Below, one piece after another: positions 2 through 21,844 of a DNA stretch of 43,649 nucleotides (position 1 is the first letter of the stretch; each line of letters starts with the position of its first letter). This DNA is from a candidate division Zixibacteria bacterium RBG_16_53_22 (GTDB lineage: Bacteria; Zixibacteria; MSB-5A5; UBA10806), in assembly GCA_001775395.1 (NCBI GenBank), contig MEWP01000102.1, positions 1 to 43,649 of the forward strand. The letters are read 5' to 3'. The notes under the pieces are model-generated. The model saw only the letters and a list, made by a program, of their open reading frames with translations, had not been told where the DNA came from and searched no databases. The position numbers and the translations under genes were made by a program.

Positions 2-1306
2 GTGATACAGACCATGACCTCCGACCGTCCAAGTTCTCTCGATATTGTCGAATCCGCGCCGGCCGGTGTAACAAGAGTATCGACTGCGAACGTGAAACTC
101 CTGTCGGGCTTCCATCCCGCCGATTTCATTGATCCGCCTGCCACATTGGATGTCGGAGGGCCGGACGATTTCGGTCACATCTGGATCGACTCCGATGAGC
201 CTGACGGCCCCAACTATTATTGGCTCGATATCACCACTGTGGGAACCGAGGTTACATGGGACCACGGAAATTCTGATGACGGCCACACGGAGCCAATCCC
301 GATGGGCATGGTTTTCAGCTACTATGGCGCAAATTACGATAGCATTGTCATTTCAAGTAATGGTTGGGTGTCTTTCATGCGGGCGCCTGACTATGCCCTG
401 GCTTTCGTTGAAAACAATCCCCTGCCCGCCGTCAATGAGCTTCTCACCACCCTGGCGGTTGACTGGGATAATCTCGACGGTGGGATTTCGGGCCATTGCT
501 ATTATTATCATGATGAGGCCGGCAACTCATTTGTCGTCTCCTGGGTCAACTGGTCGCATAAACCGGCGCCCACCAATCAGCACAGTTTCCAGCTTATCCT
601 CAATGCCACCGACGGCACGGTGCTATTCCAGTACGGAAGCGGCACTTATCAGGACGATATCACCATCGGGATCGAAAACGAGGCCGGCGACGACGGCCTG
701 ATGGTCACTTTCAATCAGCCTTATGTTCATAGTGACCTGGCCATTCTGTTTTCACCGCCCATCTTCTGGCTGTCGACCGACTTGGCAAATGGCGTCCTTC
801 CCCCATTGAGCGGCCCAATACCGTTCAACATATTCATGTATGCCCGTGATCTCCCTACCGGCACATATAATGGGGCGATAATTCTGACAAGCAATGATGT
901 CGACCAGCCGGTCGGCCTTATCAACGTGCAATTTGAAATCGAAGGAGTTTGCGCTTATATTCCTGGCGATGTCAACAGCTCCGGGGCGCCCAATGGCATT
1001 GATGTCACCTTCATGGTTAACTACTTCAAAGGTGGTGACCCCCCGCACGAGGAATGCCTGCCCTGTTCCTCGTTCGGGGTCAACATGCTGTACCCGCAGG
1101 GCGATGTCAACGGCAATTGCGCCTGGAACGGTATCGACGTCACCTACTTCGTGGCCTATCTCAAGGGAATCGGACAGCCGATTCGGTATTGCGATAACTG
1201 CGCCCCGGCAGGCGGGGGCGGCCTTATCGAGCGCGATCCCGTCATCCCATCGTTGGTTCCCGCTATCATTCGAAGGAATAACCCTTCAAGAATGCAGGCA
1301 CGGTAG
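2..1306 (+). CDS. C-terminal part of a secreted beta-rich protein with doubled dockerin-like tail (5' end outside window)
   Basis: The frame is open from the window edge, so the N-terminus and any signal peptide are missing; the GTG at base 2 is not a credible start. About residues 45-250 form a beta-rich module with the signature GGPDDFGHIWIDSDEP and a later ISSNGWVSF strand. The same module recurs in the downstream C25 protein. An Ig-like stretch with SNDVDQP follows (about 255-315). The last ~85 residues hold two dockerin-like repeats, each with a DVN..G..NGIDVT calcium-loop pattern and an FKG/LKG ending, separated by a Cys-containing linker. The architecture indicates an extracellular, probably surface-attached protein; no catalytic domain is visible in this part. 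A rho-independent terminator follows at 1333. It is separated from the next gene by its own terminator and a possible promoter. Function is unknown. Confidence 0.8.
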   Translation: MIQTMTSDRPSSLDIVESAPAGVTRVSTANVKLLSGFHPADFIDPPATLDVGGPDDFGHIWIDSDEPDGPNYYWLDITTVGTEVTWDHGNSDDGHTEPIPMGMVFSYYGANYDSIVISSNGWVSFMRAPDYALAFVENNPLPAVNELLTTLAVDWDNLDGGISGHCYYYHDEAGNSFVVSWVNWSHKPAPTNQHSFQLILNATDGTVLFQYGSGTYQDDITIGIENEAGDDGLMVTFNQPYVHSDLAILFSPPIFWLSTDLANGVLPPLSGPIPFNIFMYARDLPTGTYNGAIILTSNDVDQPVGLINVQFEIEGVCAYIPGDVNSSGAPNGIDVTFMVNYFKGGDPPHEECLPCSSFGVNMLYPQGDVNGNCAWNGIDVTYFVAYLKGIGQPIRYCDNCAPAGGGGLIERDPVIPSLVPAIIRRNNPSRMQAR

Positions 1307-1332
1307 CTAAAATCCCGCTAATATCAGGAAAT

Positions 1333-1369
1333 GAAGGGGCTCGGCAATTTCCGAACCCCTTCTATTTTC
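1333..1369 (+). terminator. Rho-independent terminator after the partial secreted protein
   Basis: GAAGGGG pairs with CCCCTTC and, after one mismatch, TCGG pairs with CCGA around a CAATTT loop. TATTTTC follows. It lies 27 bases after the stop at 1306. Confidence 0.75.
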
Positions 1370-1393
1370 AATTCTCCGGGAAATTTTAATTTA

Positions 1394-1421
1394 TTGCATT
1401 TGGCCTGTCTCATGATATATT
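1394..1421 (+). promoter_or_regulatory. Possible sigma70-type promoter for the C25 gene
   Basis: TTGCAT (1394-1399), a 16-base spacer and TATATT (1416-1421) lie about 100 bases before the chosen start at 1522, just after the upstream terminator. The match is moderate and the region is AT-rich, so chance is possible. Confidence 0.35.
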
Positions 1422-1521
1422 TATCATGCTTGAGATGCGGGTTCAATTTGCTGATTCTTCTTTTGACGTTGCTTCTCTTGTGAGATACCTGAGGGTTTCT
1501 GAGTCAAACTTTGGAGGTCGT

Positions 1522-4500
1522 ATGCGGATTGCTGCTTTGCTGGTCGTGACTTTGTTTGTCCCGCTGGCATATGTTTATGCTGCTGCCGAGAGGATCATAT
1601 TGGGGGACGTCGACATCAATTCGGCGCCCATCGAGAAATTAAATTCGAGCCGCGCCCTGACCGAGCTCGGGTTCAGGATGGCCGGTATCGAGGTCACGCC
1701 GACTGTGGCCGTCAATGGCCAGAGCTTTCAATCGGTCGCACCATTGACTTCGATCCCCGAGCAATTCGGCGAAACCGGCGAAGATGGCCTGCCGGAGCTG
1801 CCCCTCTATTCGCAACTCGTGGCTATACCTGACGAAGCCGCTGTCGTGCTGGAAATAATCTCGGCCGAGTTTGAGACTCTCGGGGGATATGATATCATGC
1901 CCAGCCAGCCGTCAACCATTGAGGGTTCAAGCGAAATACCGGCTTTCACCAGGAACGAGGAATTCTATAAGCAGGACGCATTCTATCCGCCGGAGCCGGT
2001 CACGCTGGGCGAGCCGGCCATATGCCGCGACCTGAGGATGATCCAGACCGTGATTTATCCGGTGCAATACAACCCTGCCACCAGGCAATTGCGCGTCTTC
2101 ACCCATATTGATTACAGGCTTTCATACGAGGGGATCGACATGAGCAACGCCAAGGTGCGCAAGAATGGTCATATTTCGGAAACATTTCTGCCGGTCTACC
2201 GCGCCCTCGTTCCCAATGCCGATGAGATGCTGGCCGACTATCAACCGATCAGGGGCGGGTATCTCATTATCACCCCTAATGCATTCGCCGATACGATCAA
2301 AGTTCTGGAGCGATGGAAGCATCTGAAAGGATATTATACGCAAATCACCCAAGCTACCGATATTGATCCCGATGGGATCCTCGCGCCTGAACAGGTTTTT
2401 GCTTATATTCAAAATGCTTACCTTAATTGGGAGTATCCGCCAGAATTCGTCTGCTTAGTGGGAGACGAGGATTTACAGATACCGGATTATATATTCAACA
2501 ATAATTATGCATCTGACCATCGTTATTCATGCGTCGATGGCTCTGATTATATTTCTGACATCATGGTAACCCGGATGTCAGTATCCAGCGCCATTAGTGA
2601 ATTGCAGGTCGCCATGTACAAGGCAATTAAATACGAAACCGATCCTTATATGGGCGATCCCAATTACTGGACCCGTGGCCTCTCAGTTGCTGGAAACGTC
2701 ACATCGGGTGGAGCTCCGACGGTTTCGCCCAGGCTGGTTACGCTATGGGTTCGTCAACAATTGCTCGAACACGGATTTTCCCAGGTTGATACGTCTTTTC
2801 GCTGGGGAAGCGGGTCTGACCCCTTGCTTCCAGGATATTTTAATAATGGCGTATCCATCATTAGCTATCGAGGTTGGGCGAGTTCATCAGGCTGGTATGT
2901 GCCATCTTTCGATATAAGTAATTTGAACTCGCTTCAAGCAAATAACAAAATGGGTATCATGGCTTCCCTGGTCTGCGGTACCGGTGATTTCGATGATCCA
3001 ACCTATAATCCATGCTTTGGCGAGAAATGGATTCGCATGGGAGTATTGCCTAACCTCCTAAAGGGCGGGCCTTGTTTCTATAGCTCAAGCGATCATGACA
3101 CGAATACTAAATGGAATAATTCAATCATGATCGGCTATTATTGGGCTTTGCTTGAAGAGAATATTCGTAATTTTGCCACCGCGGCGTTTCTCGGGAAAAT
3201 GGAATTATACAGGACGTTCCCCAATTTTTTACAGCCTGGGGCTCGGGTAGAAAGATACTTTTATTCTTATAACACTCTTGGTGATCCGGAACTCGAGGTT
3301 CGTATGGCGATCCCGCGTACCATGACAGCTACTTATCCGGATACTATTCCAGTAGGGACGAGTATCCTCAATGTACATGTTAATGGAATAGGTGGCGGCC
3401 CTCTCGAAGGCGCCTATGTCAACTTGGTGAAGGGATATGGGGTTAGTGAAGAGGTTTTCGTAGGCGGCAGGACCAATACAAGCGGTGATGTGACATTGAA
3501 TTTCTCGACTGCAAATGCCGACACCATGTTTGTTACAGTATCCGCAAATGACTATATCCCTCATAAAGCCTTCACCCTCGTTCAAAATCAAACTGTGGCG
3601 CTTAATGTAAGCGCCATTGCAATGAGTGACGACAGCACCGGCGGCTCAATGGGGAACAACGATGGTAACGTCAACCCCTCGGAGACGGTCGAACTCGCCG
3701 TGACCCTTCGTAATTATGGGACTTCAGTCACGGCCACCAATGTTTCGGCCACGCTGGTTTCGGTCGATCCGGATGTCAACGTCACGATACCAACCCAGAG
3801 TTACCCCAGTATCGCTCCTGGTGCAACAGAGAATGCCGGTCAGTTTGCCGCCCATTTTGCCGCCGATATCCCTCAGGGCGAGCATAGAATTCTTCGCCTC
3901 AACATTACTAGCACTCAGGGGACCTGGACGGCGGCCATCCCGGTTGATGTCAAGTCAATGTCGTTTGCCGTAACCGGCCTCTCCTATCCGGGCAATCCTA
4001 ACAATCGCCTTGATCCCGGTGAAGCATCTCAGTTAGTGGTCAATTTGACTAATCGTGGCGAATTGGGGGGTACATCCATAGTTGGACATCTTTCATCGTC
4101 CGATACGGCGATTGTGATCGCTGATAGTTTGGCCGATTTCGGCAATATCGGAATTGGCGGCAGCGGGTCGAATACGGCCTCCCCCTTTATGGTGCAGGTC
4201 AGATCGGGTGTCTACAACGGTCATAACGTTAACTTTGACTTGGATGCAGAATCGAGCAACGGCTCCATTGCGCGTCGAAGCTTTTCGGCTGTGGTGGGCG
4301 CGGTCAACACCTATGACCCAATAGGTCCCGATAACTATGGATACTACATTTATGATGACACCGATGTTGGCTGCCTGCCCGCTCCCATTTACAATTGGGT
4401 TGAGATTGCCAGCGGCCTTGGTACGCGTGTCAATTTTCCTTTTTCCACGGATGACGACGCGGTTGTTGTGAGCCTGCCCTTCAATTTCGTCTATTATGGC

Positions 4501-6786
4501 CAAACCTTCAATTATGCGTTGGTTTCTATCAATGGATTCGTTGCTTTTGATACGACTCGCTACGACATGCAGGGCCATCATTGGGCTAGTTTCGATAATA
4601 GCCAGATCCCGGAGCCGGGAGCGCCACGAGGTCTGATCGGACCGTTTTGGGATGATCTCGAATACACGGTACCGAACGGAGTTTTTAAATACAACGACAG
4701 CGCCAACCATCGCTTCATAATCGAATGGAAAAGCTGCAATCATCCTAACGCACCTGGGCAGCATCCTGAAACTTTCGAAATGATATTGCATGATCCGTCG
4801 TATTATCCGACTCCCACAGGTGATGCAGAGATTTTATTCCAATACCAGACAGTATATAACGACGATAACGACAACTGGGACGACGATGCTCCTGGATTAT
4901 ATGCCACAGTAGGCATGCAGAGTATCGATAATATGGACGGCCTTCAATACACTTACGACAATCTCTACCACCCGGCTGCCGCCATACTTGCTGCGGGGAG
5001 GGCCATTAAAATAACAACTGCCACAGGTGTTACTCCCCCGCCGGATATCTCATTTGAGCCATCGTCATTTTTCAAAACCGCGCCGGCAGGACAAATTGTC
5101 ACGGACACCCTATCCGTTTCGAACCTGGGAATCGGAAGCCTTGTATTTTCGATATATCCGGTTACGAACGATCGAATCCTGAGTGCGGAAGGATCGGGAA
5201 ATTTTGAATCATCATCTCCTCCAGAAAACATCGATGAAACGCCCATTGTAAAAAAACTCATACTAAGTAATCCCGATAACCCACCGATGCTTTTAAATCA
5301 GGGCGGCCCGGATGCCTTTGGGAATCGCTGGATCGATTCTGATGAACCGGGAGGCCCTCCCGTAACCTGGGTCGATATTTCGAGTTTGGGAGTACAGGTA
5401 ACCCTGGGCGATGATAACTACGTCGGACCGATCAGCATCGGATTCAATTTCCCGTTCTACGAGAATACCTACAGCCAGCTTTATATTGGCTCCAACGGGT
5501 TCCTATCATTCGGCGCCGGATCGGGCATCAACTTTAATGTGCCGATTCCCAATACCAGCGCGCCCAACAATTTCATACTGGCATTCTGGGACGATGTCAA
5601 CCCCAATGCAGGCGGGTCCGTGAGATATTATAATGATACGGCCAATCAACGTTTCATTGTGAGCTTTATTAATGTGCCGCTCTGGAGTTATGGTGGCAGC
5701 CTCAATTTTCAAATGTTGCTGTATCCATCAGGGAGAATCGAATATAATTATGGAACGTTGAATCCCGGCACCGGATCGCTGGCAAGCTGCGCAATAGGAA
5801 TCGAAAACGCAACCGGAACCGATGGGTTACAGGTAGTTAACGACGCCGCCTATTTGCACAGTTACCTTTCAATAGTCTTTTTCCCCCATCCAACCTGGCT
5901 GTATACCAACTTGTATAGCGCCATACTGGGAGGAGGCGCCGACACATTTGCCGTAATTACCTTCGACGCGACGGATCTTGAACCGGGCATTTACACGGGC
6001 CGACTCGATCTGGATTCCAACGACCCCGACGAGGGCTCTATCGATATTCCATTGACATTCACCGTGGGAAGCCAGGGGGCGCCCGATATTGCTTTCTACC
6101 CTGATTCGCTTCTCGATAGCCTTTCCGAGGGTCAAATAGAAACGAAAGTTTTCAAGGTTTATAATCGCGGCACAGCCGATTTGCAGGTCAATCTATCCGC
6201 GGTCGAATTTAACCCGGTAACCGGCGATGACGGGCCGATAGGAAAATTGTCCTCCGATCAAGGGGCCAACGAGATTGTGCAGGATATTCTCAACACCTGG
6301 CTCTTCATCTCCCCCGCCGCCGACACGATTCAGCCCGGCGACAGCCTGGTAGCCACCGTCACATTCGATGCCAGATTCGTCGGATCGGGCAGATATGATG
6401 GCGAGATCAGGATGGCATCGAATGATCCCGATTCCCCCAATTTGGATGCCGGGGCGGTTCTTGTGGTTTTCAGTTCCGGTCCCAACTGCTCATATATCCC
6501 CGGAGACATAAACAATAGTGGGGAGGCCAATGGCATCGATGTTACCTATGGGGTGTCCTACCTCAAAGGCGGTAGCCCGCCGCCATACTCGTGCGACTGC
6601 CCGCCACATGGGGTTTTTTACATATGCGGCGATGTCAACGGCAACTGCTCATTTAACGGCATAGATATCACATATTATGTGGCCTACTTGAAAGGAATGC
6701 AGCCGGCATTGATCTACTGTGAGGACTGCCCACCATCGCGGCAGATACTTGCGCCCAGGCCCGCCTCATCGTCGATCGGGCATTAG
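1522..6786 (+). CDS. Gingipain-like peptidase C25 family protein, multidomain, with dockerin-like tail; expected catalytic His replaced
   Basis: 1754 residues. The start at 1522 is chosen because GGAGG sits at 1513-1517 and it opens directly into a signal peptide (MRIAALLVVTLFVPLAYVYA); the frame is open upstream to 1426, but that extension has no such features. A gingipain-like propeptide region comes first, then the C25 domain (about 260-620) with VGDEDLQIPDY, a YRGW segment at 449-452, Cys485 in SLVCGTGDF, and NPCFGE. In gingipain R the His lies in a YTGHGS context; the aligned residue here is Trp452, while the nucleophile Cys is kept. CARDB/Ig-like domains follow (about 700-920), then two beta modules with INGFVAF (about 933-1167) and SNGFLSF (about 1257-1453), two Ig-like domains, and two dockerin-like repeats (about 1656-1741). 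It is exported and probably surface-bound. Whether it is an active protease is uncertain. Confidence 0.85.
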   Translation: MRIAALLVVTLFVPLAYVYAAAERIILGDVDINSAPIEKLNSSRALTELGFRMAGIEVTPTVAVNGQSFQSVAPLTSIPEQFGETGEDGLPELPLYSQLVAIPDEAAVVLEIISAEFETLGGYDIMPSQPSTIEGSSEIPAFTRNEEFYKQDAFYPPEPVTLGEPAICRDLRMIQTVIYPVQYNPATRQLRVFTHIDYRLSYEGIDMSNAKVRKNGHISETFLPVYRALVPNADEMLADYQPIRGGYLIITPNAFADTIKVLERWKHLKGYYTQITQATDIDPDGILAPEQVFAYIQNAYLNWEYPPEFVCLVGDEDLQIPDYIFNNNYASDHRYSCVDGSDYISDIMVTRMSVSSAISELQVAMYKAIKYETDPYMGDPNYWTRGLSVAGNVTSGGAPTVSPRLVTLWVRQQLLEHGFSQVDTSFRWGSGSDPLLPGYFNNGVSIISYRGWASSSGWYVPSFDISNLNSLQANNKMGIMASLVCGTGDFDDPTYNPCFGEKWIRMGVLPNLLKGGPCFYSSSDHDTNTKWNNSIMIGYYWALLEENIRNFATAAFLGKMELYRTFPNFLQPGARVERYFYSYNTLGDPELEVRMAIPRTMTATYPDTIPVGTSILNVHVNGIGGGPLEGAYVNLVKGYGVSEEVFVGGRTNTSGDVTLNFSTANADTMFVTVSANDYIPHKAFTLVQNQTVALNVSAIAMSDDSTGGSMGNNDGNVNPSETVELAVTLRNYGTSVTATNVSATLVSVDPDVNVTIPTQSYPSIAPGATENAGQFAAHFAADIPQGEHRILRLNITSTQGTWTAAIPVDVKSMSFAVTGLSYPGNPNNRLDPGEASQLVVNLTNRGELGGTSIVGHLSSSDTAIVIADSLADFGNIGIGGSGSNTASPFMVQVRSGVYNGHNVNFDLDAESSNGSIARRSFSAVVGAVNTYDPIGPDNYGYYIYDDTDVGCLPAPIYNWVEIASGLGTRVNFPFSTDDDAVVVSLPFNFVYYGQTFNYALVSINGFVAFDTTRYDMQGHHWASFDNSQIPEPGAPRGLIGPFWDDLEYTVPNGVFKYNDSANHRFIIEWKSCNHPNAPGQHPETFEMILHDPSYYPTPTGDAEILFQYQTVYNDDNDNWDDDAPGLYATVGMQSIDNMDGLQYTYDNLYHPAAAILAAGRAIKITTATGVTPPPDISFEPSSFFKTAPAGQIVTDTLSVSNLGIGSLVFSIYPVTNDRILSAEGSGNFESSSPPENIDETPIVKKLILSNPDNPPMLLNQGGPDAFGNRWIDSDEPGGPPVTWVDISSLGVQVTLGDDNYVGPISIGFNFPFYENTYSQLYIGSNGFLSFGAGSGINFNVPIPNTSAPNNFILAFWDDVNPNAGGSVRYYNDTANQRFIVSFINVPLWSYGGSLNFQMLLYPSGRIEYNYGTLNPGTGSLASCAIGIENATGTDGLQVVNDAAYLHSYLSIVFFPHPTWLYTNLYSAILGGGADTFAVITFDATDLEPGIYTGRLDLDSNDPDEGSIDIPLTFTVGSQGAPDIAFYPDSLLDSLSEGQIETKVFKVYNRGTADLQVNLSAVEFNPVTGDDGPIGKLSSDQGANEIVQDILNTWLFISPAADTIQPGDSLVATVTFDARFVGSGRYDGEIRMASNDPDSPNLDAGAVLVVFSSGPNCSYIPGDINNSGEANGIDVTYGVSYLKGGSPPPYSCDCPPHGVFYICGDVNGNCSFNGIDITYYVAYLKGMQPALIYCEDCPPSRQILAPRPASSSIGH

Positions 6787-6810
6787 GCCGCATCGCATTA
6801 ACTGGAAAAG

Positions 6811-6841
6811 GCCTCCCCGCGCAATTTCGGGGAGGCTTTTT
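6811..6841 (+). terminator. Rho-independent terminator after the C25 gene
   Basis: A 9-bp stem (GCCTCCCCG with CGGGGAGGC) around an 8-base loop is followed by TTTTT, 24 bases after the stop. It is a strong, textbook-shaped hairpin. Confidence 0.88.
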
Positions 6842-6950
6842 GACGCCGGGCCCGGCAGTTGGTCCTTGCAGATGTCATTAAATTTTTTCAAAACGCCGGT
6901 ATTTGTATTATATTGATGCTCGAGACAAGACTGATGGCGGGAATAAGGTA

Positions 6951-9161
6951 ATGAAAAATGAATTAGTATCGCTCTTGATAGTCGTCGCCGGCTGGGCTGC
7001 CGCGCCGGCGGCAACATCGCAGAGGCCGATGTTAATCCGGGTCGATCTCAAGAATTATGGGGCGTTTGATAAATTGAGTCGTTTCAAATTCGACGTTGTA
7101 TTCGTGAGCAGGAGCGGCCTCGCGGACATTGTCGGCCCATACGAGGACTATCAGGAGCTTGCCGGTCTCGGCCTGAGGCCTATCGTGATCCACGATGATT
7201 TGGTTTCATTTTATCAATCGCGCTTTCCGGCGACAACGACGATGGGCGGATTTCGAACTTTCTCCGAGGCTATCGCCTACCTGGATACGATCCATGCCCT
7301 ATTTCCCGCAATCACCACCGCTCGAAGCTCGATCGGAAACTCGTACGAGGGCCGGCCCCTCTGGATGATGAAAATTTCCGATAATCCCGATATCGACGAA
7401 GATGAGCCCGAATTCCTGGTCAATGGATTAATTCACGCCCGCGAGCCGATGGGTATGGAGGCCACCTTACGATTCATGCGCCATCTCTGCGATAATTATG
7501 GCAGCAATCCCGAGGTCACTTATCTTGTCGATAACCGCGAATTCTATTTCATCCCTGTTGTCAATCCCGACGGTTACGAATACAACCGCTCGACAGATCC
7601 GAGCGGCGGCGGCATGTGGCGCAAGAATCGCCGGGGAAGCGGTATCGACCTGAATCGAAACTGGGGCTACATGTGGGGATACGATGACGACGGCTCCTCC
7701 CCGTACCCGTCCGATGAGACATATCGCGGAACCGGACCTTTTTCGGAGCCGGAGACTCAGGCGTTACGCCAGTTCATAAATCAACGCGATTTCAGCCTTG
7801 CCATGAATTTTCATACTTATGGAGATTACTTTCTATATCCGTGGGGATACGATGAGATCCCTGCCCCCGATCTGTCCATCTTCACCATCATCGCAGATTC
7901 CTCGACCTCGTCCAATGGCTATGCAGCCGGTACTCCCTGGGAACTGCTTTACAATACCAACGGCGACGCCAACGATTGGCAATATGGCGAGCTGACCGAA
8001 AAGCCCAGGATATTCGCGTTCACAATGGAGATTGGCGGGCAATTCGATGGTTTTTGGCCGGACCCTTACCGCATTCCCGCTCTCTGGCAGGACGTGTTGC
8101 CGTCGCTTTTGTATCTTTCTCGGGTCGCCGATAATCCCTCGGCGGCCGGCCCGCCGGTAGCGCCGATCCTGGCCAATATCGGCGTTGTTCCGGGCGATTT
8201 CACTGCTTACTGGCAACATCACGACCAGGCCAACCCGGCCACCGCGTTTGAGCTTGTCGAGCAGACCGGGCTTTCGAGATTTGTCGATAATTTTGATACG
8301 GGCATGGCCAACTGGGTTCTAAACGGCTTTTCCAGGGTTAGCAACAGACATCACTCCGGCGCTTATGCCATATATTCCGGTTCGGACAATTTTTACGATG
8401 GCTCTATCGCGGCGATAAATCCGATTCAGGTTGGCCCAACTGATACGCTCACCTTCTGGGCATGGTACGCCATCGAACTCGATTATGATTACGCCTACGC
8501 CCGGATCTCCAGCGATGGCGGAGCGACATATAATAATCTCGCCGGGAATATTACAACCAATTACAACCCCAACGGAAATAATTTGGGCAACGGCATCACG
8601 GGCAACTCCGGGGCCTGGATCTTGGCCAAATTCCCATTGAATTCATACGCCGGTCAATCAGTCATGCTGGGCCTGCGTTATCGCACCGATGCCGGCGTGC
8701 TGGAGGAAGGTTTCTACGCCGATGACTTTTATCCTGTTGAGATCTTTTCGCAACGGACCACAGTAGGCTCGGCCATCACCGATACCTTTTACACATTCGA
8801 TAACCATCCCGAAGGTGAATATTACTACCATGTCAGGGCTTGTGATGCCCAGGGCCAATGGTCGGGGCAATCCAACAGGCAGATGGCCACAGTGGAACCG
8901 GGCGGCGCATGCGTCTTTGCTCCGGGCGATATCAATGGTGATGGGACATTCAATGGCATTGATGTTACGTTCGGTGTCAGTTATCTCAAGGGGCAGGGGA
9001 ACCCGCCCCCGATCTCCTGCGATTGTCCTCCGCATGGGACATTATATCCCGCGGCCGATGTTAACGGGAATTGCCAATTCAATGGTATCGATATAGTCTA
9101 TGCAGTAGGTTTCCTTAAAGGCATAGGAGCGCCGCCGGCGTCATGCCCGGATTGCCTTTAA
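6951..9161 (+). CDS. Secreted M14 zinc carboxypeptidase with dockerin-like tail
   Basis: 736 residues. ATG 6951 is preferred over the upstream in-frame ATG at 6903 because it begins a signal peptide (MKNELVSLLIVVAGWAAAPA) and has a weak TAAGG just before it. The peptidase M14 domain (about 100-395) has all the expected residues: zinc ligands His162 and Glu165 (HAREP) and His288 (NFHTYGD), substrate-binding Arg236 in LNRNW, the Y..NGDANDW segment, and catalytic Glu360 in FTMEIG. It should release C-terminal residues from peptides outside the cell. A jelly-roll/MAM-like domain (about 420-590) and a fibronectin-like segment follow. The end has two dockerin-like repeats with a CDCPPHG linker almost identical to that in the C25 protein upstream. 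It is transcribed separately from the C25 gene, since a strong terminator lies between them. Confidence 0.92.
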   Translation: MKNELVSLLIVVAGWAAAPAATSQRPMLIRVDLKNYGAFDKLSRFKFDVVFVSRSGLADIVGPYEDYQELAGLGLRPIVIHDDLVSFYQSRFPATTTMGGFRTFSEAIAYLDTIHALFPAITTARSSIGNSYEGRPLWMMKISDNPDIDEDEPEFLVNGLIHAREPMGMEATLRFMRHLCDNYGSNPEVTYLVDNREFYFIPVVNPDGYEYNRSTDPSGGGMWRKNRRGSGIDLNRNWGYMWGYDDDGSSPYPSDETYRGTGPFSEPETQALRQFINQRDFSLAMNFHTYGDYFLYPWGYDEIPAPDLSIFTIIADSSTSSNGYAAGTPWELLYNTNGDANDWQYGELTEKPRIFAFTMEIGGQFDGFWPDPYRIPALWQDVLPSLLYLSRVADNPSAAGPPVAPILANIGVVPGDFTAYWQHHDQANPATAFELVEQTGLSRFVDNFDTGMANWVLNGFSRVSNRHHSGAYAIYSGSDNFYDGSIAAINPIQVGPTDTLTFWAWYAIELDYDYAYARISSDGGATYNNLAGNITTNYNPNGNNLGNGITGNSGAWILAKFPLNSYAGQSVMLGLRYRTDAGVLEEGFYADDFYPVEIFSQRTTVGSAITDTFYTFDNHPEGEYYYHVRACDAQGQWSGQSNRQMATVEPGGACVFAPGDINGDGTFNGIDVTFGVSYLKGQGNPPPISCDCPPHGTLYPAADVNGNCQFNGIDIVYAVGFLKGIGAPPASCPDCL

Positions 9162-10080: not shown

Positions 10081-11529
10081 TCAAGGAAGCCAGTTGAAAT
10101 TTATGCCCGCAAGGTTGGCCAATTCCAACCATTTTTCTGGATATAACCCTAATTGAAGAGTCCCGAAAAGGGAAATGAATATTGCTATCATCAAAGTGGT
10201 CGATAACGGAAATTCAACCCTCGGTTGAGTCTCGGGCGTCATATACATCGCGACCACCACACCGATATAATACCATACGGAAATAAGGCTGTTCACGACC
10301 CCTATTACGGCCAGCCAGATGAAACCGGAATTGATTGCGGCGGTGAAGATTTTATATTTTCCCATGAATCCGGCGGTTGACGGGACACCTGCCAGAGACA
10401 GCATGAATATTGTCATGGCTATCCCGGCCAACGGGTATCTGGCGCCGAATCCGGAGTAGTCTTTGATGTTCTCGAGCTTCTCTCCCCTGCCGGCGAACAA
10501 TATGACGATAGCAAAGGCCCCGATATTCATCAGCGTGTAGGCCAATAGATAAAATACGCCGGCCGAGAGTCCCGTCTGTCCTCCCACCACCAGCGCAATC
10601 ATGACATAACCGGCGTGGGCGATCGACGAGTAGGCCAGCATCCGCTTGATATTTTTCTGGGCGACTGCCAGGATATTGCCCCAGGTCATCGTGACCACCG
10701 CCAATATCCAGAGGATGGTCGTGAAATTATCGCTGACCACGGGGGCGAACAGAGCGAATATCCTGAACATCGCTGCGAATGCCGCAGCCTTTGGGCCGGC
10801 CGACATGAATGCAGTTACCGGTGCTATCGAGCCTTCATAAACGTCGGGTATCCACATATGGAACGGCGCCAGGCCGACCTTGAAGCCCAGGCCGACGAGG
10901 ATGAATATCAGGCCCACGCTGGATAGGATTTGGCTATAGTTGGAGCCGATATTCAGTCTGTGGCTGATCTCGATCAGATTGGTGGTGCCATAAGCGCCGA
11001 AAAGGAGCGCGATACCGTATAGCAGAAAGGCCGACGCGAAAGCCCCCATCAGGAAATATTTCATCGATGCCTCGCGGGAGCGGGGCCGATCGCGATTGAT
11101 GCCGGCCAGCACGAAAAGCGGTATGCTCATGACCTCGAGCCCGAGAAAGATAGTGATCAGGTCGGCCGTCGATGCCATGACCATCATGCCGAAGGTGGCG
11201 ATAAAAATCATGACATAGTATTCGCCTATCCCCCGCATTTCCGTTTTGACGTAGCTCGATGACGCAAAAATCGTCAACAGCGTCCCCAGGCAGAAGATGA
11301 TCTTGAAATAAAATGATATATAATCATTGATGACGATATTCGAGATGCCGGCGCCAAAGAGGTTGAAATTGCTCGTGGCCAGAATAATGGCGATAATTGT
11401 GCCGGCCAGGCTGAGCCCTGTCAGGATGACATTTCTGCCCCGGCGCAAGATCAGGTCGGCCAGGAGGAGGACGAAGGCTGTTCCTAATATAGCTATTTCG
11501 GGGGATATGATCTGCCAATTAAAATTCAT
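10081..11529 (-). CDS. nuoN: NADH-quinone oxidoreductase subunit N
   Basis: 482 residues, the usual length for this antiporter-like membrane subunit of complex I, which takes part in proton pumping. The sequence is hydrophobic throughout, consistent with about 14 membrane helices. Family landmarks include GLEVMSIPLFVLAG (the helix-5 Glu), GLGFKVGLAPFHMWIPDVYEG and KRMLAYSSIAHAGY. It is the last gene of the operon; its ATG overlaps the nuoM stop (ATGA). No convincing terminator hairpin with a T-run was seen after the stop; a GC-rich imperfect dyad is present at about 10068-10082. Confidence 0.97.
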   Translation of the reverse strand: MNFNWQIISPEIAILGTAFVLLLADLILRRGRNVILTGLSLAGTIIAIILATSNFNLFGAGISNIVINDYISFYFKIIFCLGTLLTIFASSSYVKTEMRGIGEYYVMIFIATFGMMVMASTADLITIFLGLEVMSIPLFVLAGINRDRPRSREASMKYFLMGAFASAFLLYGIALLFGAYGTTNLIEISHRLNIGSNYSQILSSVGLIFILVGLGFKVGLAPFHMWIPDVYEGSIAPVTAFMSAGPKAAAFAAMFRIFALFAPVVSDNFTTILWILAVVTMTWGNILAVAQKNIKRMLAYSSIAHAGYVMIALVVGGQTGLSAGVFYLLAYTLMNIGAFAIVILFAGRGEKLENIKDYSGFGARYPLAGIAMTIFMLSLAGVPSTAGFMGKYKIFTAAINSGFIWLAVIGVVNSLISVWYYIGVVVAMYMTPETQPRVEFPLSTTLMIAIFISLFGTLQLGLYPEKWLELANLAGINFNWLP

Positions 11530-13106
11530 CTCAAATCACCCTCGGGATTTCCGGGCTGAACTTTGTCGACATTGGCAGACTGGGCGTCATCAGGCGCTTC
11601 CTGGCGCAACGCCTGGTCGCGTTTCTGTTCCACCGTCTGCACCAGATTCCTTACCGATGGCTCAATCTTACCGATGAAAGTTTGCGGATAGATCCCTATC
11701 CAAAATACCATTATTATCAGCGGAAGCGTGATCAGCCTCTCTCTCCAATTGATATCGCGCAGTTGACGGTTCTCGTCTTTGGTTATTTCGCCGAAAAATA
11801 CCCGCTGAACCATCCACAGCATATAAACCGCGGCCAACACTATGCCGAAAGTCCCGATGACCGCATACGTGACATTGGTGCGAAACGTGCCAAGCAATAT
11901 CAGAAATTCGCCTACGAATCCATTCGTCCCCGGCAGGCCGATCGATGCCAGCGTCATAATCAGGAATATCGCGGCGAAAACCGGCATGACATGGGCCAGA
12001 CCGCCGAATTCATCGATAAGCCTGGTATGCCGACGTTCATATATCATTCCCACCAGGAGAAACAGGGCCCCCGTTGTGATACCATGATTTATCATTTGAA
12101 TTATGGAGCCGGTCAGACCTGTGACAGTCAACGCAAACATCCCTAACATGACAAATCCGAGGTGGGCAACCGAGGAGTATGCCACCAACGATTTGACATC
12201 CTTCTGCACCATGGCCACCAGCGCGCCATATGTGATTCCGATCAACGCCAGGATTGATATAAGGGGCATCAGCTGGGTGGTGGCATTCGGGAAAATTGGC
12301 AGACAGAATCTGAGGAATCCATAAGTGCCCATCTTGAGCAGGACACCGGCCAGGATAATCGATCCTGCCGTTGGCGCCTCGACATGAGCATCGGGAAGCC
12401 ACGTATGAAATGGAAATAACGGCACCTTGATGGCAAACGCCAGAGCAAAAGCCAGGAAGAGCCAGAATTGGAGCTCAGGCGTGATCTGCAGGTTCAGTAC
12501 GGCCATCAAGTCGGTAGTTCGGCTAGCCGGGTCGGTGGATGTCATGAGATAGAGCTTGATTATCCCCAGAAGCATGAGAAGAGAACCAAACATCGTAAAG
12601 AGCACGAACTTTACCGCGGCATAGATTTTCCTGGGCCCTCCCCAGATTCCTATTAAGAAATACATCGGGAAAAGCATGACCTCCCAGAATATGTAGAACA
12701 GGAAAAGGTCCGTTGCCGTGAATACGCCCAGCATGCCGGTCTGGAGTAACATCATCGAGATAACGAATCCCTTGACCTTCTCTTTGATGGCGTCCCAGGC
12801 GGAGGCCAGCGCGATGGCGCTCAAAAACGGTGTCAATAGCACCAGAAGGATAGAGATGCCATCGACCCCCAGGCTGAACGTGACGCCCATCGATCGGATC
12901 CAAATCAGGGGACCCTCGCGAAACTGCATGCCGGCCCTGGAACCATCGAATTGTGCGAATAGCACAACTGTCAGGACAAAATCAAGGATCGTGAAGAGCA
13001 ATGCTGTCCACTTAAGCGCGCTATGTGACCGGTGATTAATGAATAGCAAGACCAGGACCGAAAACAGCGGCAGGAAAACTATCCATGATAAAATCGGAAA
13101 ATCCAT
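11526..13106 (-). CDS. nuoM: NADH-quinone oxidoreductase subunit M
   Basis: 526 residues. This is the second antiporter-like proton-pumping subunit of complex I. Diagnostic stretches are FYIFWEVMLFPMYFLIGIWGG (helix-5 Glu), AIKVPLFPFHTWLPDAHVEAPTAGS (split below family length here only by citation) and VKSLVAYSSVAHLGFVMLG. The C-terminal ~40 residues after the last helix are charged and Gln/Asp-rich, longer than in many homologues. It sits 25 bases after nuoL, and its stop overlaps the nuoN start. Confidence 0.97.
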   Translation of the reverse strand: MDFPILSWIVFLPLFSVLVLLFINHRSHSALKWTALLFTILDFVLTVVLFAQFDGSRAGMQFREGPLIWIRSMGVTFSLGVDGISILLVLLTPFLSAIALASAWDAIKEKVKGFVISMMLLQTGMLGVFTATDLFLFYIFWEVMLFPMYFLIGIWGGPRKIYAAVKFVLFTMFGSLLMLLGIIKLYLMTSTDPASRTTDLMAVLNLQITPELQFWLFLAFALAFAIKVPLFPFHTWLPDAHVEAPTAGSIILAGVLLKMGTYGFLRFCLPIFPNATTQLMPLISILALIGITYGALVAMVQKDVKSLVAYSSVAHLGFVMLGMFALTVTGLTGSIIQMINHGITTGALFLLVGMIYERRHTRLIDEFGGLAHVMPVFAAIFLIMTLASIGLPGTNGFVGEFLILLGTFRTNVTYAVIGTFGIVLAAVYMLWMVQRVFFGEITKDENRQLRDINWRERLITLPLIIMVFWIGIYPQTFIGKIEPSVRNLVQTVEQKRDQALRQEAPDDAQSANVDKVQPGNPEGDLR

Positions 13107-13131
13107 TTCGTTGGACCCTCGTAGACCTTTC

Positions 13132-15093
13132 TTACCTCAAAAGCACGAACCCCATCAGGAAAACCACGCCGATCACAAACAGCAACGCATAGTTTCGGAC
13201 CAGGCCTGTCTGAACGAACCGGAATTTATCGGAAAACCAGCCAATCATTCCTGCCAGCCCATTGGCGGCGGCATCCACACCGCGGATGTCAGTTATTTTC
13301 CAGAAAAATAGCGCGGCAATAATCAGGGGCTGGACTACCACAGCATTATAAAACTCGTCGATGTAATATTTATTGAGAACGGTGTTATACAGGCCGTTGA
13401 ACCTCTCGGCCAGGCGTTTGGGCCGCTCAGGATTGGCGATATAAAAATTGTAAGCGATTAATATCCCGATTGCCGCGGCTATTATCGACGATACCAGGAG
13501 CAAGTATTCGGTCGCGTGCGAGATATGTGTTGCCTCTGCGGCTGCGGCGTGTTCTCCGGCAAAGACCGGCGCCAGAAAATGCTCGAACCAATTTCCACCG
13601 CCCAGGGCCATGGGCAGGCCGATATATCCGCCAATCAGCGCCAGAAAGGCCAATATTAATAGTGGAACAGTCATAACCCGGGGCGATTCGTGGGCGTGAT
13701 GTTCAACCTCTGGATCCATGCGGGATTTGCCAAAGAATGTCATGAATAGCAATCTGAACATATAGAAAGCGGTTAATATGGCCGCCAGGATGCCGGCTCC
13801 CCAGAGGATTGGGCTGCCGTGCGGCGATGTAAACGCCTTGAATAATATTTCGTCTTTCGAAAAGAACCCCGAGAGCAGCGGCACGCCCGAGATCGCCAGC
13901 GTTCCGATAAACATTGTCGCAAAAGTGGCCGGCATATACTTCCTGGCACCGCCCATCTTGCGCAGGTCGAGTTCTCCCGCCAGGGCATGCATGACAGAGC
14001 CGGCGCCAAGAAAAAGAAGAGCCTTGAAAAAGGCATGTGTCATAAGATGGAAAATGCCTGATGCAAAAGCGCCGACGCCACATGCCAGGAACATATACCC
14101 GAGCTGGCTTATGGTGGAATAGGCGAGAACTCTCTTTATATCGTTCTGCACGGTTCCGATAGAGGCCGCATAAAGCGCGGTCGCCGCCCCAATAATCGCC
14201 ACCACGGCCATCGATATCGGCGCCAAAACATAAAGGGCGGAAAGGCGACTGACCATGTAGACCCCGGCGGTCACCATCGTGGCGGCATGGATCAGGGCCG
14301 AAACCGGCGTCGGCCCTTCCATCGCGTCCGGAAGCCATACATATAGCGGTATCTGTGCCGATTTGCCGGTCGCGCCCAGAAAGAGCAGAAGTGTAATAAC
14401 GGTCACCACGCCGGTGCCACCCAGAATTTCCGGCGCCAGATGGCTGATTTCCAGAAGGTTTATGGTCGGATGACCTGCGCCCGCCAATGTCCAGAAAAGG
14501 AGCATGATACCGAGCGCGAAACCGAAATCGCCGATACGATTGACAATGAAAGCTTTCTTGCCGGCGTCGGCGGCGCTCTTCTTATGAAACCAAAATCCTA
14601 TCAATAGATAACTGCAAAGCCCAACTCCTTCCCATCCGAGGTAAAGGAGCAAAAGGTTGTTGGCCATCACCAGGGCCAGCATCGAGAACGTGAACAGGTT
14701 TAGATATGAAAAATATCGCGAGACACCGCCATCGCCGTGCATATAGCCGATCGAATAGACATGAATCAGAAATCCAACCCCGGTCACCACCAGCATCATG
14801 ACCGCCGACAGCGGGTCATAAAGAAATGAGAACGAGGCCGAGAAAGGCCCGGCGATTATCCAGTCGAACCAGGTCGCCTGCACTGCGCGAGCCTCGACCG
14901 GGAGACCCTTCAGGAGGAAGAAGGCCCACAGCGAGAGAACAAAAGAGGCAAACACGCACAGCGACGCCAGCCAACCAGCGACCTTTTCCGGCATTCTCTT
15001 GTTGAAAAGCCCATTCAATAGAAATCCCAGCAGCGGGAATAGCGGCACGAGCTTGATTAGCGATTGAATCTGTGCGATACCCTGATCTTCCAT
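13132..15093 (-). CDS. nuoL: NADH-quinone oxidoreductase subunit L
   Basis: 653 residues. This is the distal proton-pumping subunit of complex I, with the long lateral helix expected at the C-terminus. Landmarks are LYLGWEGVGLCSYLLIGFW, AQIPLYVWLPDAMEGPTPVS, ALIHAATMVTAGVYM and VLAYSTISQLGYMFLA. A His-rich loop (VEHHAHESP) lies around residue 465 and a C-terminal membrane helix is present. It starts one base after the nuoK stop codon, so the two are tightly coupled. Confidence 0.97.
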   Translation of the reverse strand: MEDQGIAQIQSLIKLVPLFPLLGFLLNGLFNKRMPEKVAGWLASLCVFASFVLSLWAFFLLKGLPVEARAVQATWFDWIIAGPFSASFSFLYDPLSAVMMLVVTGVGFLIHVYSIGYMHGDGGVSRYFSYLNLFTFSMLALVMANNLLLLYLGWEGVGLCSYLLIGFWFHKKSAADAGKKAFIVNRIGDFGFALGIMLLFWTLAGAGHPTINLLEISHLAPEILGGTGVVTVITLLLFLGATGKSAQIPLYVWLPDAMEGPTPVSALIHAATMVTAGVYMVSRLSALYVLAPISMAVVAIIGAATALYAASIGTVQNDIKRVLAYSTISQLGYMFLACGVGAFASGIFHLMTHAFFKALLFLGAGSVMHALAGELDLRKMGGARKYMPATFATMFIGTLAISGVPLLSGFFSKDEILFKAFTSPHGSPILWGAGILAAILTAFYMFRLLFMTFFGKSRMDPEVEHHAHESPRVMTVPLLILAFLALIGGYIGLPMALGGGNWFEHFLAPVFAGEHAAAAEATHISHATEYLLLVSSIIAAAIGILIAYNFYIANPERPKRLAERFNGLYNTVLNKYYIDEFYNAVVVQPLIIAALFFWKITDIRGVDAAANGLAGMIGWFSDKFRFVQTGLVRNYALLFVIGVVFLMGFVLLR

Positions 15094-15094
15094 A

Positions 15095-15463
15095 TCACCA
15101 CTTCATGATGTTGACGTCATCGACATTGACCGAATCTTTCAAGCGATAAATCGAAATAATGATAGCCAGCCCCACGGCCGCCTCGGCGGCGGCTACGGTC
15201 ATTACCAGGAATACCAGCACCTGCCCGGAGGCCATGGCCGATCCGATGATGTCGGCCGCCTCGGCCGGCGACACGGCCTGCACAAAGCGCGTCAAAATCT
15301 GACGCATATTGCTGGAAAAAGCGATCAGCGCCAGGTTGACAGCGTTGAGCATGAGCTCTATCGCCATGAATATGACTATTGCGTTCCTCGATCTGAGCAC
15401 GCCCCAGACCCCTATCGAGAATAGGATGGAGGAAAGGACAATGAAATATCCAAGCGGTACCAT
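15095..15463 (-). CDS. nuoK: NADH-quinone oxidoreductase subunit K, with an enlarged loop
   Basis: 122 residues, against about 100 in E. coli. Three membrane helices carry the two buried glutamates used in proton transfer, Glu36 (AIELMLN) and Glu94 ([10 protein letters not shown]). The extra 22 residues all fall between helix 2 and helix 3 (about 54-79, including [15 protein letters not shown]). The ATG directly follows the nuoJ TAA and is preceded by GGAAGGG. Confidence 0.96.
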
Positions 15464-16024
15464 TTACCCTTCCTCGTTTTCGATGTCCGGCAGGCGTTTC
15501 TTGCGCGCTATGACGACCGCCCCAATCATGGCCGCCAGGAGAAGAATCGAGGTCACCTCGAAAGGATAAGCGTACTTGGTGAAAAGGGTACGCGCCACCC
15601 AATAAGCGCTGTTGTAGTCAACGGCCGGCCCGGCGCCCGGCGTGCCCTCCGTCGAGACCAGAGAGGAAGCCGCGGAATAGTCTTTCATCGCCCAGCCGAT
15701 AATCACAATACCCTGCACGAGGATTACCGCGACAAGCACAAAACCGAGATATTTCTGAATAATGTGCGAATCATGCCCATATTCGTCGCGGCGGAGATTC
15801 AATAGCATGATCACAAACAGGAACAACACCATGATGGCGCCGGCATAGACTATAATCTGCAACGCCGCCAGGAACAGCGCGCCCAGCAGGACGAAAAGCC
15901 CGGCCAGGGAGCACATCACCAGGATAAGATAGAGCGCCGATGATACCGGGCTCTTGGTGGTTATGACCATCACCGCGGCGCCAACCGCTATGATGGCCAG
16001 TATGAAAAATATCGCGAAACTCAC
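15464..16024 (-). CDS. nuoJ: NADH-quinone oxidoreductase subunit J
   Basis: 186 residues; membrane subunit of complex I with five predicted helices. LQIIVYAGAIMVLFLFVIMLLN is split here as LQIIVYAGAIMVLF plus LFVIMLL, and is the hallmark helix-3 region with its pi-bulge Tyr/Gly. The start is GTG at 16024. The start codon lies 63 bases after the nuoI stop, one of the largest gaps inside the operon, and the SD-like GAGGG is unusually close to it. Confidence 0.95.
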   Translation of the reverse strand: MSFAIFFILAIIAVGAAVMVITTKSPVSSALYLILVMCSLAGLFVLLGALFLAALQIIVYAGAIMVLFLFVIMLLNLRRDEYGHDSHIIQKYLGFVLVAVILVQGIVIIGWAMKDYSAASSLVSTEGTPGAGPAVDYNSAYWVARTLFTKYAYPFEVTSILLLAAMIGAVVIARKKRLPDIENEEG

Positions 16025-16087
16025 CCTCTAACCCCTGTGCTCCTGATCAATTCCAATTGCGTGATAACGATGTCCATTCGCTCGCAT

Positions 16088-16618
16088 CTAATGTCCGATC
16101 GGCGCGGCCGGCTTCTTAAATTGAAACCGCTCCTGGCGAATCATCGGCTTAATCCGTTTGGCCACTCGCTCCTTCTCGATCTTGTCATAGTTGGCGAGCA
16201 GCATTTCTTTGGTATAAATGAAATCGTCGCGATCTCCGGATGAAAACTCGAATTCGTGCCCCAGGAAAATGGCCTCCTCCGGGCAGGCCTCCTCGCACAT
16301 GCCGCAGAATATGCATCGAAGCTCGTTTATCTCGTAAATCCTGGCATATCGAATACCTGAGGGGGTCTCGGCGCACTCCATATAGATACAATCCGCCGGG
16401 CAGGCGGCGGCGCAGAGGCCGCAGCAGACGCACCGCTCGCTGCCGTCGGAATATCGTGTCAGGTAGTGCAACCCTCGGTAACGATCCTCGAATTTGGGGC
16501 GAACCTTTGGGTACTGCTCGGTCACGGGCTTCCGAAACAGGTATCTGAATGTAATCGATAGCCCCGTGGGTATCGCAATGAAAACCGATTTGAATGTCTG
16601 CCACATATCTATATTCAT
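16088..16618 (-). CDS. nuoI: NADH-quinone oxidoreductase subunit I, 2x[4Fe-4S]
   Basis: 176 residues. It carries the two ferredoxin-type clusters N6a and N6b that pass electrons from NuoG towards NuoB. Both motifs are complete: CVCCGLCAAACP and CIFCGMCEEACP, about 40 residues apart. The N-terminal helix associates with the membrane arm. GAGGGG precedes the ATG, 6 bases after the nuoH stop. Confidence 0.97.
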   Translation of the reverse strand: MNIDMWQTFKSVFIAIPTGLSITFRYLFRKPVTEQYPKVRPKFEDRYRGLHYLTRYSDGSERCVCCGLCAAACPADCIYMECAETPSGIRYARIYEINELRCIFCGMCEEACPEEAIFLGHEFEFSSGDRDDFIYTKEMLLANYDKIEKERVAKRIKPMIRQERFQFKKPAAPIGH

Positions 16619-16624
16619 GCCCCT

Positions 16625-17617
16625 CTAACTCTTCATTACCAGGATCAATGCCGTTATGATTAAATTGGCCAGTCCCAGTGGGAACATGACCTTCCACCCG
16701 AACCTCATCAGCTGATCATATCGGAACCTGGGCAGCGTGCCTCTTATCCAGACGTAGATAAATAGGAAAATCACGACCTTGATTACAAACCAGAGTACCG
16801 GCGGCAGTATCGGCCCATTCCATCCGCCGAAAAAAAGGCTGGCGGCTATAGCCGAGACCGTTATCATATTGGCGTACTCGCTCAGGTAGAAGATGCCGAA
16901 TCGCATCCCGGAATACTCCGTATGGTAACCTGCTACGAGCTCCGATTCGGCCTCGGGCAGGTCGAATGGCGAGCGGTTGGTTTCGGCGATGGCTGAAATG
17001 AAATAGACGAAAAACGCTATCGGCTGTTTGAAGAAATACCAATTGAATATCGAACCCGATTGCTGCCGGACTATCTCGGCTACGGACAGCGTCTGACTCA
17101 GCAAAAGAACTCCGATAATCCCCAATCCCAGCGACACCTCATAGCTGATCATCTGGGCGGTCGATCTGATTCCGCCCAATAGCGAATATTTCGAGTTCGA
17201 CGACCATCCCGCCAACACTATGCCGTAGACACCCAGCGATGACATGGCGAAAATATAAAGAATCCCTATGTTGATATCCGAGATGAGCAGTTCGATTCTC
17301 TTGCCGCCTATCTCGAGCCAATTGCCGACCGGTATAACCGCAATAGTCATGCAGGCGGTGATGAAAGACAGCATCGGCGCGATAGTATAGAAGAACTGAT
17401 CGGCCTTGGCGGGCTTGATTTCCTCCTTGAAAAGCAGCTTGACAGCATCGGCCACCGGTTGCAGCAAACCAAACGGGCCGACGATATTTGGCCCGATGCG
17501 GTGCTGAATGTGGGCCACCACCTTGCGCTCCAGGTAGGTCGTATATGCGATAGTGGTCAGGAGAGCGACAAAGATCACGCCCACCTTAAGGAGTATTATC
17601 ACCACCTCGATTAACAT
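16625..17617 (-). CDS. nuoH: NADH-quinone oxidoreductase subunit H
   Basis: 330 residues. This membrane subunit forms much of the quinone chamber where the arms of complex I meet. Landmarks are AYTTYLERKVVAHIQHRIGPN, ETNRSPFDLPEAESELVAGY and the C-terminal RGTLPRFRYDQLM, each a family signature. The start is set at ATG 17617, which overlaps the nuoG stop as TGATG; a TTG one codon upstream is also open but less likely. Confidence 0.97.
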   Translation of the reverse strand: MLIEVVIILLKVGVIFVALLTTIAYTTYLERKVVAHIQHRIGPNIVGPFGLLQPVADAVKLLFKEEIKPAKADQFFYTIAPMLSFITACMTIAVIPVGNWLEIGGKRIELLISDINIGILYIFAMSSLGVYGIVLAGWSSNSKYSLLGGIRSTAQMISYEVSLGLGIIGVLLLSQTLSVAEIVRQQSGSIFNWYFFKQPIAFFVYFISAIAETNRSPFDLPEAESELVAGYHTEYSGMRFGIFYLSEYANMITVSAIAASLFFGGWNGPILPPVLWFVIKVVIFLFIYVWIRGTLPRFRYDQLMRFGWKVMFPLGLANLIITALILVMKS

Positions 17618-20040: not shown

Positions 20041-21333
20041 TTATTCAAACCTCGGGGCAGTCGTACCGGGAAGACAGGCCTTATTGGTGATATGATACTC
20101 GTACTCGTCCCGGAATTGTTTGATAGTAGATCTCACGGATGGAACGGCGGCATCGCCCAGCGGGCAGATGGTGTTTCCCTCGATATTGTCGCAGATATCG
20201 AGGAGCGTGTCGAGGTCTTCCATCCGGCCCTCGCCGTGCTCGATCCGATTAAGAATCACCAGCATCCAGTAGGTGCCTTGACGGCAGGGTGTGCACTGGC
20301 CGCATGACTCATGCTGGTAAAATTGAGCCAGGTTCAGCGCCGCGCGGACCATGCACATTGTCTCGTCAATGACTATTACGCCCGCCGAACCGAGCATCGA
20401 TCCCGCCTCGGCCAGCGATTCGAAATCCATATGGACATCGATCTTGTCCGCGGTCAGGACCGGCACCGATGAGCCGCCGGGTATGACAGCTTTCAAATTA
20501 TGGCCGTCCTTGATACCGCCGCCATAGTCGTACAACACCTCTCTCAGCGGTACGCCCATCGGAAGCTCGTAATTTCCGGGCTTATTGATATGCCCCGATA
20601 GGCAGAATATCTTCGTGCCGGTGGATTTGGGCGTGCCGATGGAGGCGAACCATTCAGCTCCCCGATTGATGATATGAGGCAAATTAGCGAGCGTTTCCAC
20701 GTTGTTGATAATTGTCGGGCAGCCGTAAAGCCCTGCCACCGCCGGGAAAGGAGGCTTGACTCTGGGGTAACCCATGCCGCCCTCAAGCGATGTTAGAAGC
20801 GCAGTTTCCTCGCCGCAGATATAGGCTCCGCCCCCCCGATGAACGACTATATCGATGTCAATTCCCTTGCCTGATATATTTTTCCCGACAAATCCCTTAG
20901 CCCGAGCCTCCTCGATCGCCCTGGTCAACTGCCGCGCGGCGAAAGTGAATTCTCCCCTGATATAGATGAAAGCGATCTTGCATTTTATGGCATAGGCCGC
21001 AATCAGGGTACCTTCGATAACCATGTGCGGATCTTTTTCCATGAGTTCGCGATCTTTGAAGGTACCCGGTTCGGATTCGTCAGCATTGACTGTCAGATAG
21101 ACGGGCTTGCCTGTCCCTTTGGGGAGAAACGACCACTTACGCCCGGCCGGAAATCCGGCGCCGCCGCGGCCACGAAGGCCGGACTTGATAACAACGTCGG
21201 TAACCTCCTCGGGAGTCATCGTGGTGACTGCCTTGCGGAAAGCGGCATATCCACCGTTTTTCATGTAGGTGTCGATCCGATCCTGCTCGGGAAAATCTAT
21301 GTATTTGAAAAGTATCTTCTCAAATTCAGCCAT
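20041..21333 (-). CDS. nuoF: NADH-quinone oxidoreductase subunit F, NADH and FMN binding
   Basis: 430 residues. It binds NADH and FMN and carries [4Fe-4S] cluster N3, so it is the electron entry point of complex I. GLRGRGGAGFPAGRKW is the nucleotide-binding signature, EDRELM/HMVIEG follows, and the cluster motif is SCGQCTPCRQGT plus a distal Cys in NTICPLGD. It overlaps the end of nuoE by a few bases, and AAAGGTCC precedes the ATG. Confidence 0.98.
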   Translation of the reverse strand: MAEFEKILFKYIDFPEQDRIDTYMKNGGYAAFRKAVTTMTPEEVTDVVIKSGLRGRGGAGFPAGRKWSFLPKGTGKPVYLTVNADESEPGTFKDRELMEKDPHMVIEGTLIAAYAIKCKIAFIYIRGEFTFAARQLTRAIEEARAKGFVGKNISGKGIDIDIVVHRGGGAYICGEETALLTSLEGGMGYPRVKPPFPAVAGLYGCPTIINNVETLANLPHIINRGAEWFASIGTPKSTGTKIFCLSGHINKPGNYELPMGVPLREVLYDYGGGIKDGHNLKAVIPGGSSVPVLTADKIDVHMDFESLAEAGSMLGSAGVIVIDETMCMVRAALNLAQFYQHESCGQCTPCRQGTYWMLVILNRIEHGEGRMEDLDTLLDICDNIEGNTICPLGDAAVPSVRSTIKQFRDEYEYHITNKACLPGTTAPRFE

Positions 21334-21829: not shown

Positions 21830-21844
21830 CTTATTACTCCCGAA

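Follow-up and report, generated by a model that had tools for sequence, protein, structure and literature searches.

A doubled dockerin tail in a Zixibacteria genome and its proposed role as an attachment tag for cohesins delivered by type IX secretion

The present study deals with a doubled dockerin-like tail found at the C-termini of four exported proteins in a stretch of 43,649 nucleotides (hereafter the window), which begins at the first base of contig MEWP01000102.1 (C102) of the uncultured candidate division Zixibacteria bacterium RBG_16_53_22 (assembly GCA_001775395.1; 3.86 Mb, 96% complete). On homologous proteases the tail is interchangeable with the C-terminal sorting domain of the type IX secretion system (T9SS). 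We consider it probable that the tail is a genome-wide C-terminal attachment tag, which docks onto cohesins encoded on another contig (C137) and delivered outside by T9SS. The same protease is thus found with a dockerin or with a T9SS domain, switched several times in evolution, and this amounts to a natural experiment. A dockerin-cohesin pair is thereby connected with type IX secretion in a phylum that has no model organism, the cohesin genes can be named, and the question arises by what route proteins lacking a T9SS domain leave the cell.

Interchange of a dockerin tail and a sorting domain

Homologues of the M14 zinc carboxypeptidase of the window were gathered from the class, sampled here as 58 genomes including that of the window, and a tree was built on their heads. 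Among 51 homologues, 35 end in the doubled dockerin and 16 in a T9SS domain, always at the same junction and with no other C-terminus, the dockerin label meaning a sequence without a T9SS domain that was checked by eye (eight of these have degenerate loops which fail the strict pattern). The label changes at least five times on the tree of the heads, and all of these changes are forced by supported branches. Both forms exist in the genome under study: the M14 protein of the window ends in the dockerin, whereas the T9SS domain is found on its paralogue on contig C72 (61% identity). A similar picture was obtained for the M6 proteases, with 38 T9SS domains vs 10 dockerins in 48 homologues (two proteins running off contigs were left out) and three changes, two of them forced. 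Repeated switching of the tag on the same protease suggests that both tags do the same job. The exchange of the module at a fixed junction also rules out that the tail is a part of the preceding domain, which an earlier note on the window, made from its sequence alone, had named as an outcome that would count against its own reading.

The same note had called the tails dockerin-like, and this is borne out. Pfam Dockerin_1 matched 24 places in the genome and passed its cut-off in the window at 34330-34494 and 8922-9095 (24.4 bits in the genome scan). When the window proteins were examined by hmmscan, Dockerin_1 gave 31.9 bits for the protein at 34288, 20.8-21.0 bits for two proteins and no match for the C25 peptidase. 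The tail profile matched solved dockerins among the PDB sequences (best E 1.8e-5). The structure of the tail at 8910, a prediction that the note had proposed, was modelled from only 4 sequences and at low confidence (pLDDT 54); it has helices at residues 18-28 and 61-71, and all 32 PDB matches of this model in Foldseek are dockerin or cohesin-dockerin entries, with weak E-values (0.05 and up). Because the Pfam, PDB-sequence and fold matches are all dockerins, the tail is, as judged from sequence and model, a dockerin, and binding to cohesin is predicted. The T9SS sorting domain profile TIGR04183 has no match in the four window proteins.

In the 58 tails of the genome with two recognisable loops, the form D-x-N-x-x-(G/C)-x-x-N-G-(I/L)-D occurs twice and a helix-like segment follows each copy. 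Positions 9-12 of the loop read N-G-I/L-D and position 6 of the second loop is Cys in 56 of the 58 tails, so the tail is stricter than general dockerins, as had been proposed. The D-x-N-x-x-G pattern given earlier for both loops holds for the first; in the second, Cys stands in place of Gly at position 6 in all four window tails. Two sub-types can be distinguished. The Cys type, usually with six Cys, has a linker rich in this residue; the short type lacks the linker and closes with R-G-D-C. The number of Cys is even in 56 of 65 tails and six in 37. These residues would form disulphides, making the tail a disulphide-rich, type-I-like dockerin.

Only four carriers had been implied before. A profile built from the four window tails, run against the genome as suggested in the earlier note, gave 77 matches, of which the 58 just described are C-terminal, and the carriers number about 60 in all, the counts being those of profile searches and fetched stretches of the genome. 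The tail is almost strictly C-terminal, most copies ending at most about 50 residues before the stop codon, and a crude test found an N-terminal hydrophobic segment in 40 of 43 full carrier open reading frames (ORFs). The commonest heads on 62 carriers are peptidases, propellers and repeat domains, including immunoglobulin (Ig) domains. When run on the eight other genomes of the order, this profile detects 31-99 tails per genome. Elsewhere in the class it matches weakly (E 1e-4 to 1e-13) or not at all, and ordinary dockerins are common there instead. The note had held that the occurrence of the tail in many unrelated phyla without a partner would speak against its reading; among the 58 class genomes the strict tail was found only within the order, and a partner co-occurs. 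A 113-amino-acid protein on contig C131 (L096, 811-1149, minus strand) is nearly just a signal peptide and a tail, perhaps a stand-alone secreted dockerin that acts as a plug or competitor for cohesins.

Cohesins and their co-occurrence with the tail

The window has no cohesin-like gene, as had been stated earlier; the cohesins sit on contig C137, where four adjacent genes contain five cohesin domains. One encodes a protein of 259 amino acids with one cohesin and the doubled tail itself. The proteins of 736 and 286 amino acids end in a T9SS sorting domain, and so does that of 707 amino acids, which has two cohesins and an internal ordinary dockerin. Two domains of the cluster are over the Pfam cut-off for cohesin (PF00963), and a cohesin profile matched 30 PDB sequences, all of them cohesin or scaffoldin entries (best E 1.4e-10). 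The genome has seven cohesin domains in total. The C137 cluster is kept across members of the order (G001-G005 and G008), and related clusters exist elsewhere in the class. Across the class, the majority of the sampled cohesin genes have a T9SS sorting domain at the end, and each encodes one to three cohesins. The fetched ORFs, which were chosen by cohesin or tail matches and whose tallies are thus not genome frequencies, comprise 90 with cohesin and T9SS domain, 96 with dockerin alone, 8 with cohesin and dockerin and 3 with all three; none of them has a dockerin and a T9SS domain while lacking a cohesin. A scan of genome contigs with the cohesin protein gave mostly T9SS domains of other phyla and few cohesin clusters (L223, L224 and L232). 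Giant proteins with VNEGARLDIRVTATDPD-type repeats adjoin the cohesin cluster in several genomes (L115, 5735-6310; L116, 1-5201).

Components of the secretion system itself are present in the genome, namely SprA (1990 amino acids), PorV and at least 82 sorting domains. An ORF of 943 amino acids on contig C130 (84335-86602) has two PorV-profile pieces and is longer than the usual PorV, and more PorV-like proteins occur elsewhere.

A search for cohesins across genomes, which had been put forward as a check, showed that they accompany the dockerins. Both are present in 51 of the 58 class genomes, dockerins only in one, cohesins only in none and neither in six (Fisher p 1.7e-7, uncorrected for relatedness). 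By the lineage profile the six genomes without the pair (G010, G011, G019, G020, G026 and G033, one of them with a single dockerin match) all belong to families f4 and f5. T9SS domains are still many in them, at least 82 in five of the six, and these genomes represent a joint loss or absence of the dockerin-cohesin pair.

Probable docking onto cohesins, and other possible roles

In the proposed mechanism, the dockerin tag is carried by the roughly 60 proteins described above, for the most part peptidases, beta-propellers and Ig or repeat proteins exported by Sec, and the C137 cohesin proteins would be delivered to the outside, at the cell surface, by T9SS via their own C-terminal sorting domains. 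A tagged protein would plug into a cohesin so delivered and would reach, indirectly, the same place as a T9SS-tagged protein. The dockerin could replace the T9SS domain on the same protease because both would send it to the same place. Docking could occur either outside or in the periplasm before export. In the latter case a tailed protein would bind a T9SS-tagged cohesin protein while still in the periplasm and be carried by it through the outer membrane. This two-part export is a tentative proposal, with the chances standing against it. If true, the dockerin would signal export by T9SS indirectly and could for this reason take over from the sorting domain gene by gene; periplasmic docking before export would be a new mode of export.

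The residues at the recognition surface are consistent with a common partner. Loop positions 10-11, established as cohesin-recognition positions (PMC8063739), show 74% identity across the 58 tails of the genome and 22% for M14 orthologues of other families. Other sampled genomes have codes of their own at the loop positions before and including the last Asp: N-G-L-D in G002 and G004, N-x-S-D in G044 and N-P-V-D in G051. In G006 the first loop reads M-G-N-D and the second x-G-S-D; among six tails of this genome (L365-L370), G-N-D occurs in the first loop of five and G-S-D in the second loop of all six, a consistent asymmetry which suggests a single binding mode. Between tails on different heads within a genome, the fraction of core positions in agreement is 0.64-0.78 (0.48 in G051, with two tails) as against 0.36 for M14 tails of different families, and sampling of the tails outside the order by best Dockerin_1 score may inflate this likeness within genomes. 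The earlier note had held that the tails recognise one shared partner on the surface. This part gains good, if indirect, support from the uniform recognition positions, kept despite near-random codons, from the family-specific codes, from the co-occurrence of cohesins and from the T9SS domains that these bear; the note had missed the cohesin locus on C137 and the alternation with the T9SS domain.

A number of points weigh against docking onto cohesins. There are about 60 tails and 7 cohesin domains in the genome, a ratio that would leave many tails unfilled unless the cohesin proteins are abundant. No route across the outer membrane is known for a protein that has just the tail. The dockerin-free genomes all fall in two families, so that few independent events underlie the co-occurrence. 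In family f16, G046 has 30 dockerins and no cohesin and G054 has 18 and one; both genomes are 82-89% complete, and the shortfall may reflect incomplete genomes or a different receptor.

The excess of tails over cohesins and the persistence of the tails in the two f16 genomes also count for the chief rival. Here T9SS, for instance through a shuttle like PorV, or some other outer-membrane machine would recognise the tail directly as a signal for secretion or sorting, and no cohesin would be needed. A tail that takes turns with the T9SS domain at one junction and keeps almost exclusively to the C-terminus would fit such a signal as well. Its matches by profile and fold are those of a dockerin, however, its conserved positions 10-11 are the known cohesin contacts cited above, and cohesins come and go with the tail. 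A directly read signal is therefore regarded as unlikely.

The tail could also serve as a cap or spacer, stabilised by calcium and disulphides, and have no partner of its own. The even number of Cys in most tails, with six as the commonest count, suggests a rigid, stapled fold. A cap would not need the same residues in some 60 unrelated proteins at positions 9-11, which are not calcium positions, and it leaves the family-specific codes and the alternation with a sorting domain unexplained, which makes this role quite improbable.

Another explanation for the uniformity is that one tail was recently duplicated or spread by gene conversion, in which case the likeness would say nothing of a partner. 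Tails of one genome do resemble each other more closely than those of orthologues do, and at the N-G-x-D positions the use of the same codon is slightly above expectation (0.46-0.48 observed vs 0.38-0.40 expected). These codons are nevertheless close to random, and the core DNA identity between tails has a mean of 0.65 and exceeds 0.9 in only 5 of 1711 pairs. Near-random codons and few near-identical pairs indicate that selection on the protein, and not recent copying, keeps the tails alike; copying as their source is unsupported and has very little probability. A conventional cellulosome, with polysaccharide-degrading enzymes on a carbohydrate-binding scaffoldin, would account for the dockerins, the cohesins and the adaptor-like protein having both, but it is scarcely credible, as the 25 commonest of the 57 families on the 62 carriers, led by peptidases, propellers and repeat domains, include no glycoside hydrolase, and the cohesin proteins carry T9SS domains and one to three cohesins each. 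One protein of the cohesin set has two to three cohesins.

Known systems and the tailed proteins of the window

Dockerin and cohesin modules outside cellulosome producers have long been known, mainly from sequence surveys. Noncellulosomal dockerins and cohesins were reportedly treated by Peer et al. in 2009. To our knowledge such dockerins have been catalogued for years, and no clear role has emerged for them. The present work adds their connection to T9SS and the exchange of tails.

The general design of dockerins with T9SS-anchored cohesins has already been proposed for Ca. Stygibacter (Cloacimonadota), where a putative T9SS-anchored cellulosome-like complex was described from genomes only (Williams et al. 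2021, PMC8542988). As in that organism, proteins with a signal peptide, a C25 gingipain-like peptidase among them, bear the dockerins at their C-termini, and the cohesin scaffoldin has a T9SS-type C-terminal domain. There, however, a single scaffoldin of 3755 amino acids has tandem cohesins and carbohydrate-binding modules, whereas here a cluster of smaller proteins has one to three cohesins each, some 60 proteins have the tail, and the dockerin is Cys-rich, has an N-G-I-D code and alternates with the T9SS domain. The tail resembles the dockerins of clostridial type I pairs in its two calcium-loop and helix repeats, in the specificity positions 10-11 and in the solved structures that it matches. 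It differs in having G-I or G-L at these positions, Cys at position 6 of the second loop and usually a Cys-rich linker; moreover, cellulases are not the commonest cargo here and the cohesins carry T9SS domains. Like the T9SS type A sorting domain (TIGR04183, Por_Secre_tail), it is a C-terminal tag on dozens of exported proteins and takes the same junction in homologous proteases, but it is a dockerin of different fold and has no sequence match to TIGR04183. No report of dockerins or type IX secretion in Zixibacteria was found in the literature searched, which left most subscription journals outside. Nor did this literature contain a tagged set of such size, the lineage-specific code, the cluster of small cohesin proteins or, most notably, the repeated switching between tail and T9SS domain.

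All four doubled tails described in the earlier note were found at their places in the window. With the tail profile they reach 112-157 bits, at E-values from 1e-31 to 4e-46 and thus well beyond chance, and the second to fourth are 54-60% identical to the first. The first protein (2-1306, plus strand) is exported and lacks its N-terminus because the contig edge cuts the 5' end of the gene; it and the next protein have a NIDO-like domain in common, and its Dockerin_1 score of 21.0 bits is just under the Pfam cut-off of 22.9. Its tail (950-1201; 152 bits) is of the Cys type, C...CLPC...C...CDNC. The next is a gingipain-like C25 peptidase (1426-6786, plus strand), in which propeptide, C25 and NIDO-like domains are followed by a Cys-type tail with CDCPPHG (6487-6729; 157 bits). 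The M14 zinc carboxypeptidase (6903-9161, plus strand) has an InhA-like MAM domain and then a Cys-type tail, again with CDCPPHG (8910-9155; 149 bits), which is the one whose structure was predicted. The fourth is an M6, immune inhibitor A-like metalloprotease (34288-36786, minus strand) with a tail of the short type (34294-34506; 112 bits), which ends in RGDCG and has a Dockerin_1 score over the cut-off. The Cys-rich linker is thus present in three of the tails, as had been observed, with CDCPPHG in two, a different linker in the protein ending at 1306 and none in the M6 protein. Between these genes lies a run of complex I (nuo) genes (10081-23032, minus strand), which is ordinary.

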